A stretch of 64,000 nucleotides of DNA from Burkholderiales bacterium (GTDB lineage Bacteria; Pseudomonadota; Gammaproteobacteria; Burkholderiales; Burkholderiaceae_E). The stretch's first letter is position 1. Each line of letters begins with the position of its first letter. The notes beneath the pieces were generated by a model. The model saw nothing but the letters and a program-made list of their open reading frames with translations. It searched no databases and was not told where the DNA came from. Where the stretch lies: contig JAPLQE010000016.1 of assembly GCA_026399835.1 (NCBI GenBank), positions 1 to 64,000 on the forward strand, read 5' to 3'. Below are positions 61,913 to 63,850 of this stretch, piece by piece. A program made the position numbers and the translations under genes.

Positions 61913-62572
61913 ATGCAAACCGTTCCCGCCCTGCGACGACTCACCCCGCTCGACCGGCTGCTGGCCGGCGCGGGCCGTGCGATGGGCGCGATCGCCGCCG
62001 CCCCGGGTGCAAGCCGCCCGACGCCGCGTCCGGCGTCCGAGGTGCTCGGCGATCCGCTGCCCGAGGCCGATCGGCGCCTGGCCGGAGCGCTGATGCGCGT
62101 CAACCATGTCGGCGAGGTCTGCGCGCAGGCGCTGTACGAGGGGCAGGCCGCCACCACCGCCGATCCCCGGCTGGAGCGCTTCTTCCGCGACGCCGCGGCC
62201 GAGGAGGGTGACCACCTGGCCTGGACGCGCGACCGGCTCGACGAGCTCGGCGCCCGGCCGTCGCTGCTCAATCCGCTCTGGTATGCCGGCGCGTTCGCGT
62301 TCGGTGCGCTTGCCGGCCGCATCGGCGACCGGTTCTCGCTCGGCTTCATGGTCGAGACCGAGCGTCAGGTCGAGCGTCATCTGGCCGGGCACCTCGAGCA
62401 GCTGCCCGAGGGCGACGCCGCGTCGCGTGCGATCGTCGAGCAGATGAAGCGCGACGAAGGCGGCCATGCCGACCACGCCGAGGCGCTGGGGGCGGCGCCG
62501 CTCCCCGAGCCGGTCCGGGCCGCGATGCGGGTCGCGGCCAAGCTGATGACCGAGACGGCTCACCGCATCTGA
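61913..62572 (+). CDS. coq7: Ubiquinone biosynthesis hydroxylase Coq7
   Basis: A 219-residue di-iron monooxygenase that adds the last ring hydroxyl in ubiquinone synthesis. Duplicate ferritin-like iron motifs: [20 protein letters not shown] and [20 protein letters not shown] in the first half, [12 protein letters not shown] and [17 protein letters not shown] in the second. The amphipathic middle ([19 protein letters not shown]) contacts the membrane. No Shine-Dalgarno site precedes ATG 61913, and the putative -10 is very near. It converges with osmC across a short tandem repeat. Confidence 0.93.
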
Positions 62573-62578
62573 GCGCCA

Positions 62579-62620
62579 CGCCGAGGCTTCGGTCCTCGAC
62601 GCCGAGGCGTCAGTCCTCCA
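62579..62620. repeat. 21-bp imperfect tandem repeat at the coq7/osmC junction
   Basis: Two direct copies, CGCCGAGGC-T-TC-G-GTCCTC-G-A and CGCCGAGGC-G-TC-A-GTCCTC-C-A (18 of 21 identical). The second contains the osmC stop codon (62610-62612). A small duplication of the end of osmC is the simplest explanation. Confidence 0.7.
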
Positions 62621-63038
62621 CGATCTCCCAGCTCATCTTCAGCTCGGCCGTCCTGGCCAGCATCGCGGAGGCCGAACAGTACTTGTCGTGCGACAGCTTG
62701 ATCGCGCGCTCGACCACGTTCGGCTTCAGGCTGCGGCCGCGGACCGTGAAGTGGAAGGTGATTGCGGTGAAGACCTTCGGGTCGGTCTCGGCCCGGTCCG
62801 CCTTCAGCGCCACCTCGCAGCCCCGGACATCCTGGCCGCTCTTTCTCAGGATCAGCACGACGTCGTAGGCGGTGCATCCGCCGGTGCCGAGCAGCACCAT
62901 CTCCATCGGCCGGGGGCCGAGGTCCCGGCCGCCGCCTTCGGGCGCACCGTCCATCACCACCGCGTGGCCGCTGCCGGTCTCGGCGACGAAGCTCATCGTG
63001 CCTGGGCCGGTCCATCTGACGAGGGTTTCCATATTCAT
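62610..63038 (-). CDS. OsmC/Ohr-family peroxiredoxin-like protein
   Basis: A 142-residue OsmC-family protein, predicted to reduce organic peroxides with thiols. Both redox Cys are present: Cys55 (VLLGTGGCTAYDVVLILRKS) and Cys121 (LSHDKYCSASAML). Other family blocks are GGGRDLGPRPMEM and FHFTVRGRSLKPNVVERAI. ATG 63038 and ATG 63032 are both possible starts. It lies between coq7 and rplM, an order conserved in Burkholderiales. Confidence 0.88.
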   Translation of the reverse strand: MNMETLVRWTGPGTMSFVAETGSGHAVVMDGAPEGGGRDLGPRPMEMVLLGTGGCTAYDVVLILRKSGQDVRGCEVALKADRAETDPKVFTAITFHFTVRGRSLKPNVVERAIKLSHDKYCSASAMLARTAELKMSWEIVED

Positions 63039-63170
63039 GCCACTCTGTTGCGTTATTGCGTTGCGGGATAACAAGGGGCCGGACACTGCTCCGCAGATGG
63101 CCCAGCTCTGCAGAAAACCTCGGCTATTCCGGGGTTAGCGGCGATTCTCTACTTTGATGGCCCGGTCATC

Positions 63171-63200
63171 TTGCACAGCACAATCGGGCGGTGCTAGCAT
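63171..63200 (+). promoter_or_regulatory. Strong sigma-70-like promoter upstream of the candidate small RNA
   Basis: TTGCAC (63171-63176), an 18-bp spacer and TAGCAT (63195-63200), with TG one base before the -10 (extended -10). It points to transcription starting near 63207, too far from rplM to be its only promoter and followed by a terminator. Confidence 0.6.
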
Positions 63201-63206
63201 CGCTTC

Positions 63207-63322
63207 ATCGATCGCGGCTTGCAGGGTTCCAGTGGCTGGCGTGCACGCGGCGATCTCCGCTGTCTCCTCCACCCTCCTCAAAAAGGTGGATTCAACCCGG
63301 GCCTCACCGCCCGGGTTTTTTT
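63207..63322 (+). ncRNA. Candidate small RNA, about 116 nt, upstream of rplM
   Basis: This stretch lies between a good promoter and a strong terminator and contains no convincing short gene. It has an internal hairpin TCCACC/GGTGGA (63268-63273 with 63285-63290) whose 11-nt loop is CTCCTCAAAAA; the CUCCUC is complementary to Shine-Dalgarno sequences. Another CTCCTCC lies just before it. This layout resembles trans-acting RNAs that bind ribosome-binding sites, but it could also be an attenuated rplM leader. Confidence 0.45.
63294..63322 (+). terminator. Rho-independent terminator before rplM
   Basis: AACCCGGGC and GCCCGGGTT form a 9-bp stem around CTCACC, followed by seven T. It ends transcripts coming from the upstream promoter at about 63207 and insulates rplM. 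Confidence 0.9.
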
Positions 63323-63364
63323 CGTCCTGCGCGCCTGGCCCGTGCATCGCTGCGCGATCACCTT

Positions 63365-63394
63365 TTGACGTCGGCCTGCAGTTCCGGTTATGAT
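63365..63394 (+). promoter_or_regulatory. rplM-rpsI promoter
   Basis: TTGACG (63365-63370), 18-bp spacer, TATGAT (63389-63394): a near-consensus sigma-70 promoter, about 28 bp before ATG 63422 and downstream of the terminator. Confidence 0.75.
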
Positions 63395-63421: not shown

Positions 63422-63850
63422 ATGAAGACTTTCTCCGCCAAACCCCACGAAGTGCGCCACGACTGGTTCGTCGTCGATGGCACCGACAAAGTCCTCGGGC
63501 GACTGGCCGCGGAGATCGCGTCCCGCCTGCGCGGCAAGCACAAGCCCGAGTACACCCCGCACGTCGACACCGGCGACTTCATCGTCGTCGTGAACGCCGC
63601 GCGGATCCGTGTCACCGGCTCCAAGCCGCAGGACAAGAAGTACTACCGCCATTCGGGTTACCCGGGCGGCATCAGCGAGACCAATTTCGAGAAGATGCAG
63701 GCCCGGTTCCCCGGACGTGCGCTCGAGAAGGCGGTCAAGGGCATGCTGCCCAAGGGCCCGCTCGGCTACGCGATGATCAAGAAGCTCAAGGTCTACGCAG
63801 AGTCGTCCCACCCGCACACCGCCCAGCAGCCGAAGGCGCTGGAAGTCTGA
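63422..63850 (+). CDS. rplM: 50S ribosomal protein L13
   Basis: A 142-residue large-subunit protein, normal length. Recognised by [68 protein letters not shown] and [23 protein letters not shown] 63422 agrees with family N-termini. It forms the usual operon with rpsI, 31 bp downstream. Confidence 0.98.

Follow-up and report, generated by a model that had tools for sequence, protein, structure and literature searches.

The region in front of rplM in the 64,000-nt stretch of DNA analysed here (the window) raises the question of whether the compact unit located there is a leader of the ribosomal protein operon or an RNA gene of its own and, if the latter, which regulator controls it and which mRNAs it acts upon. 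A sequence-only reading had proposed an extended -10 promoter, a hairpin presenting CUCCUC in an 11-nt loop and a strong terminator, placed ahead of a ribosomal protein operon with its own promoter, and these elements were all recovered here. The extended -10 TGCTAGCAT lies at 63192-63200, at an 18-nt spacing from TTGCAC at 63171-63176, and this -35 hexamer sits within a conserved inverted repeat, TTGC-N3-GCACAA. The hairpin pairs UCCACC (63268-63273) with GGUGGA (63285-63290) around the 11-nt loop, and the terminator has a 9-bp stem (63294-63317) with a loop of 6, followed by T7. The features of the locus are:

61913 to 62572, forward strand: coq7, a neighbouring gene (Pfam PF03232); coq7 also flanks S17 of B. 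pertussis
62610 to 63038, reverse strand: neighbouring gene for an OsmC-like protein (Pfam PF02566)
63168 to 63184, no strand assigned: PhaR-operator-like inverted repeat ATCTTGCACAGCACAAT with the core TGC-N3-GCA, overlapping the -35, its position kept in relatives
63171 to 63200, forward strand: promoter read from the sequence (TTGCAC, 18 nt, extended -10), kept in the same-genus loci L018 and L023
63207 to 63260, forward strand: 5' leader of the primary transcript, self-folding
63261 to 63322, forward strand: mature sRNA core, RF02278 (the Rfam match extends to 63324)
63261 to 63267, forward strand: pairing site 1 from the fold, the free 5' end UGUCUCC, which runs on into the stem UCC
63268 to 63290, forward strand: hairpin 1 (fold, conservation), whose loop CUCCUCAAAAA at 63274-63284 is pairing site 2
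63294 to 63322, forward strand: intrinsic terminator hairpin with U7 tail (sequence, fold)
63365 to 63394, forward strand: promoter-like site of rplM, TTGACG-18-TATGAT, separate from the sRNA
63422 to 63850, forward strand: rplM, ribosomal protein L13, a neighbour named from its sequence

The 62-nt core has a folding energy of -25.9 kcal/mol (z = -4.58), matched by none of 200 shuffles, and the 116-nt form has a z of -3.42. Positions 63261-63324 of the forward strand match Rfam RF02278, "Betaproteobacteria toxic small RNA", scoring 66.9 bits where the cut-off is 50 and covering the model from end to end (positions 1-64 of 64; E 1.5e-13 in a 351-base search). The RNA has the two hairpins of that family, the second being the terminator, together with the CU-rich 5' end and loop. 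It is a new member of the already described RF02278, namely the rplM-linked copy of a family that includes ncS27 of B. cenocepacia and S17 of B. pertussis. We regard it as quite probable that the window holds a stand-alone, trans-acting RF02278 sRNA gene with two anti-Shine-Dalgarno sites, controlled by PhaR at the level of the family.

The RNA shares with ncS27 (and ncS03, ncS05 and ncS62) the two hairpins, the 5' end UGUCUCCUCC, a CU loop and a terminator; in the accessible text on ncS27 this RNA adjoins BCAL3348a/BCAL3349, and BCAL3348 appears there among the ribosomal protein genes. The differences are a loop AAAAA in the window where ncS27 and RF02278 have CUUU, and a primary transcript predicted at about 116 nt rather than the 92 nt of ncS27. 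The available portion of the S17 study (PMC11722255) describes a long form transcribed from a sigma-A promoter and a shorter one carrying these 5' pairing sites, near coq7; the window copy also has coq7 nearby and is predicted to give the same two forms. S17L, however, has 190 nt, and its neighbours there are BP3151 and coq7, rplM going unmentioned in that portion. What was established for the window copy comprises sequence, structure, conservation, family membership and synteny; by analogy it may behave like its relatives in transcription, processing, Hfq dependence and target repression. The leader at 63207-63260 would be cut off as in the conversion of S17L to S17S, a processing known for S17 and ncS27 only.

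Matches to RF02278 above the cut-off were obtained for 55 of the 61 genomes searched in the bacterial family and for 75 of the 200 searched in the order; none of the 14 control genomes had one. The own genome (4.95 Mb in 93 contigs) contains a second copy above cut-off, L002 (G000:C23:80499-80561, 62.8 bits), located between a TctC-type receptor gene and a patatin/DUF3734 gene, as well as a weak match (L003, 25.4 bits) and one near noise (L004, 14.7 bits); the latter two were dropped as weak from the 60 loci fetched, leaving 58 in the counts. L003 (G000:C85:4226-4296) is an RF02278-like double hairpin near branched-chain-transporter-like ORFs, with E 0.0069 in a search with our own 45-core model. 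In Pigmentiphaga, tandem RF02278 sRNAs with identical cores stand at 298-327 and 675-704 of L296, each with its own operator, and weak RF02278 matches lie less than about 1 kb from phaR genes at G127:C1:2180464 and G170:C78:94589.

The comparison with relatives that the sequence-only reading had called for was carried out on 45 aligned cores, in which loop and stems are kept and compensatory changes are present, contrary to the lack of conservation that the reading had named as refuting. The 5' GUCUC (G2-C6) is invariant, and 88.3% of cells are paired in the two helices against 78.5 in shuffled alignments, with a covariation score of 0.281 versus 0.121 (0 of 500 shuffles as high). Shifting the pair partners by 1-3 columns drops pairing to 28-49%. 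Hairpin 1 has 99.2% of its cells paired and varies little, both-side changes being seen at 2 of its 6 pairs.

The upstream regions of the family have in common the inverted repeat TTGC-N3-GCA-MMAA, placed on the -35. Our own 14-position pattern of it was found by eye and then scored on the same 58 loci, where at least 13 of 14 positions agree in 52 (shuffled 1.15; flanking controls 1/57 and 1/56); the fair tests are the phasin loci, the named-genome set and the published consensus. The named set, which shares some loci with the discovery set (L040 seems to derive from L277) and from which 4 further loci were skipped as too near a contig end, contains the pattern in 64 of 77 loci (shuffled 1.6; downstream 3/71). 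As for the published consensus, the accessible text of PMC12849132 (2025) gives YTKNTGCRNYGCANMAR for R. eutropha PhaR, with sites tested by EMSA and a limit of 3 mismatches. With at most 2 mismatches it occurs in 46 of the 58 promoters (shuffled 1.0; downstream windows 1/58) and in 61 of the 77 named-set promoters (shuffled 1.4). The downstream control of the named set yielded such a site in 16 of 75 windows; 15 of these hold the same sequence, GACGCGACGG, at 340-430 nt downstream, interpreted here as part of the rplM coding region, and the other is L245. Because the loci are related by descent, p-values are optimistic throughout. A similar element, TG[N]TGC[N]3GCAA, was footprinted with PhbF of H. 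seropedicae, according to the part of Kadowaki 2011 (PMC3206438) at hand.

The site in the window itself, at 63168-63184, has 4 mismatches to the R. eutropha YTKNTGCRNYGCANMAR and lies outside the published limit of 3; it is therefore treated as a weak copy and is not counted among proven PhaR targets. The second copy of the own genome, L002, has two YTKNTGCRNYGCANMAR sites with 0 mismatches, so that PhaR control may be stronger there than at the weak window site. Cupriavidus and several Ralstonia loci have no good site at the rplM-linked copy. In a relative, L040, the promoter reads TTGCATCGCACAAA and then TACTAT, and holds the -35 TTGCAT, inside the same operator motif, and the -10 TACTAT published for S17 in the accessible text of Sim 2024 (PMC11722255), whose authors speculate there on an unidentified repressor at the S17 promoter.

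It could be argued that TTGC-N3-GCACAA is a mere strong -35 variant and that the sRNA is regulated by growth or starvation in some other way, which we consider unlikely. The TTGC does stand at the -35 place, in most cases with a TATAAT-like hexamer following after 17 nt, and 34 genomes have RF02278 without PhaR. The conserved part, however, runs beyond the -35 as an inverted repeat that matches the footprinted PhbF and EMSA-tested PhaR sites of the published excerpts; the motif is also found in phasin promoters (at least 13 of 14 positions in 21 of 30 loci, shuffled 0.65), and a different dyad replaces it where PhaR is absent.

PhaR control at the family level is also addressed by the distribution of PhaR, which was detected in 135 of the 200 order genomes. 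RF02278 is present in 94 of these 135; of the other 65, in which PhaR was not detected, 34 also have it (p 0.019), and so the RNA does not need PhaR. The site follows PhaR more closely. Compared between the loci of 26 hand-picked PhaR-positive order genomes and 34 PhaR-negative loci, which come from 26 of the 34 sRNA-positive genomes without PhaR (six weak-match genomes being excluded), YTKNTGCRNYGCANMAR sites occur at 19/26 versus 3/34 (p 3.3e-7) and our own pattern at 17/26 versus 4/34 (p 2.4e-5). Two of the 4 PhaR-negative exceptions (G158 and G180) are genomes 85-87% complete whose congeners have PhaR. Two further PhaR-negative genomes are represented in the 58-locus set by L048 and L060, and L048 scores 14/14 with our own pattern, which speaks against the PhaR reading. 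Of the 34 PhaR-negative promoters (L099-L132, 150 nt upstream of the cores), 28 match the dyad TATTAGANNATNCTNAT at 16 or more of its 17 positions; only 1 of the 26 PhaR-positive loci does.

The own genome carries phaC-phaB-phaR at G000:C35, a phasin gene at C69 and phaZ at C31. It has three exact matches to the pattern TTGCRNYGCAMMAA (the reversed control has one), at phaZ (PF06850, 4.5e-92), at a ptsN-like gene and at the phasin gene. The second of these, L163 (G000:C37:5709-5722), is an exact operator-like site just 5' of a PTS EIIA gene, here taken for ptsN, and may suggest a link of PhaR to the nitrogen PTS. The signal is noisier in 12 other genomes: the 69 exact matches there are fewer than twice the 39 of the reversed control, and most of the sites fetched adjoin unrelated genes. 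By position, five of the 69 are immediately 5' of RF02278 sRNAs (G195, G156, G234, G115 and G176) and two are at phasin genes by Pfam (L174 and L190); one more is at a phasin by position (G020), the ORF chosen there (L184) being without a Pfam match.

RNAs resembling the family were also found behind phasin genes. The search model, built from the 45 stand-alone sRNA cores, was run on 30 phasin loci: immediately 3' of the phasin ORF, in the same orientation, 12 gave a match at E < 0.01 and 17 at E < 1. At E < 1 it has none in 8 phaR loci, and the 3' end of the own genome's phasin gene gave no match to it. The distance from ORF end to RNA ranges from -51 to 196 nt, with 14 of 17 at 10-49 nt, and the -51 case (L079) is probably due to the ORF choice. 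Five phasin-end RNAs picked for folding have a free 5' (UG)UCUCCUCC, a hairpin with a CUCCUCC loop and a terminator. Their hairpin-1 stem is unlike that of the stand-alone RNAs, and they may thus be relatives or convergent.

On these sequence grounds we lean, with moderate confidence, towards a PHB-sensing circuit of which RF02278 is the RNA arm, and in which PhaR and a shared operator would govern both sRNAs and phasins, many phasin mRNAs would carry an RF02278-like 3' RNA, and PHB would free both RNAs, shutting uptake and catabolism; where PhaR has been lost, another regulator would act at the TATTAGA-N2-AT-N-CT-N-AT dyad. PhaR would repress the family sRNA promoters at TGC-N3-GCA on the -35. 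In relatives PhaR moves from DNA to PHB granules, and granules drawing it away would release the sRNA. In the window, transcription would start near 63207 and end at the terminator at 63322, and removal of the leader would probably leave a 62-nt RNA with a free 5' end and the CUCCUC loop. With Hfq, this RNA would pair with strong GGAGGAGAC-type ribosome-binding sites and block translation of mRNAs for uptake systems and catabolic enzymes. A carbon-storing cell would thereby turn down more uptake and catabolism.

The accessible text of Sass 2017 (PMC5688073) states the regulator of family RNA accumulation to be unknown and reports higher levels of these RNAs on glucose in cells starved of amino acids. 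A PhaR operator offers a directly testable answer to the regulator question. If the circuit is real, it would name the ncS27 regulator and the missing repressor speculated for S17, explain the rise on glucose under amino-acid starvation, and couple the state of the cell's carbon reserve to a global silencing of its nutrient uptake. Betaproteobacteria would also gain a counterpart to MmgR of Sinorhizobium meliloti, likewise an sRNA repressed by PhaR/AniA and tied to PHB and phasins; MmgR is alphaproteobacterial and of another family (the r8s1 subfamily), and the likeness drawn here is one of regulation. The PhaR-sRNA link may matter for engineering PHB producers, and riboregulation in Cupriavidus has been called undeciphered in print. 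The link of PhaR to RF02278 is apparently unreported, as the literature searched and read here contained nothing that ties RF02278 to PhaR, to PHB or to the 3' ends of phasin genes, though closed-access papers may hold one.

The sequence-only reading had also suggested that the loop could block translation starts, and published work on the RF02278 family, by analogy, supports this; the loop site stands, and it is joined by another pairing site that the reading had overlooked, UGUCUCC at the free 5' end. In the accessible text of Sass 2017 (PMC5688073) the double-hairpin RNAs are assigned to RF02278, their CU-rich stretches pair over ribosome-binding sites, and ncS27 overexpression slows growth, silencing having the opposite effect. 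NcS27 is reviewed, in the part of PMC10987360 available, as a regulator of metabolic shutdown upon nutrient deprivation. The Sim 2024 preprint (PMC11722255), as far as its text is accessible, reports that S17 is transcribed from a sigma-A promoter and shortened to 67 nt through cleavage by RNase E, that it is Hfq-dependent and represses BP2158 directly, with compensatory mutations restoring repression, and that 70 of 92 S17-affected genes have complementary sites. Taken together, these partial texts describe repression of uptake and catabolic genes by pairing at the ribosome-binding site. The NmsR sRNAs of Neisseria meningitidis are likened here by their description, in the excerpts available, as pairing through unpaired CU-rich stretches with ribosome-binding sites, as RF02278 does; they differ in being a tandem pair with TCA-cycle targets.

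A partial target survey by Shine-Dalgarno pattern counted 65 GGAGGAG-N5-11-ATG sites in the own genome and 15 in its reversed control; in 27 of the 65, AC follows. Nine continue with ACA and so present GGAGGAGACA, the full complement of pairing site 1 (UGUCUCC plus UCC); 8 of the 9 precede open frames, of which three encode substrate-binding proteins (Peripla_BP_6 twice, DctP) and five enzymes. Among 14 of 33 AAGGAGG sites inspected as a control, none resembled a substrate-binding protein, as judged by eye. The GGAGGAGACA set fits the published uptake and catabolic targets, its numbers being too small to claim enrichment; within the window GGAGGAGACA is not in excess, and GGAGAC may be a general Shine-Dalgarno style of this genome.

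We hold it to be very unlikely that the RNA instead acts as a 16S 3'-end decoy that titrates ribosomes or S1 without specific mRNA pairing: the consensus loop CCUCCUUU resembles the 16S tail, which counts for such a 'toxic' reading, but the loop of the window copy is CCUCCUCAAAAA, without CCUCCUUU. The family owes its name, according to the accessible description, to toxicity in E. coli, yet the available text of PMC11722255 reports that S17 overexpression is not toxic in exponential growth, nor in E. coli, and the restored repression noted above also argues for specific pairing.

The stand-alone trans-acting sRNA remains our reading with respect to rplM as well. The rplM gene is found in 42 of the 58 loci and an OsmC gene in 47, and rplM, osmC and coq7 are all absent in 9 (counted by eye); the order osmC, sRNA, rplM is thus ancient yet not obligatory, which speaks against an rplM leader. 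An attenuated 5' leader whose terminator controls read-through into the ribosomal protein operon, which the sequence-only reading had offered as its alternative, is highly improbable and was rejected: in 39 of the 42 rplM-holding loci the sRNA does stand on the same strand directly upstream of rplM (by position, by eye), but rplM has a promoter-like site of its own after the terminator, 16 of the 58 loci have no rplM match within the fetched 3 kb or less, the second copy above threshold in the same genome lies between the TctC-type receptor and patatin genes, comparable RNAs occur at other places, phasin gene ends among them, and S17 adjoins coq7 and a glycosyltransferase in the accessible account. 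At its opposite end, the window begins with a 5S rRNA gene at positions 1-112.
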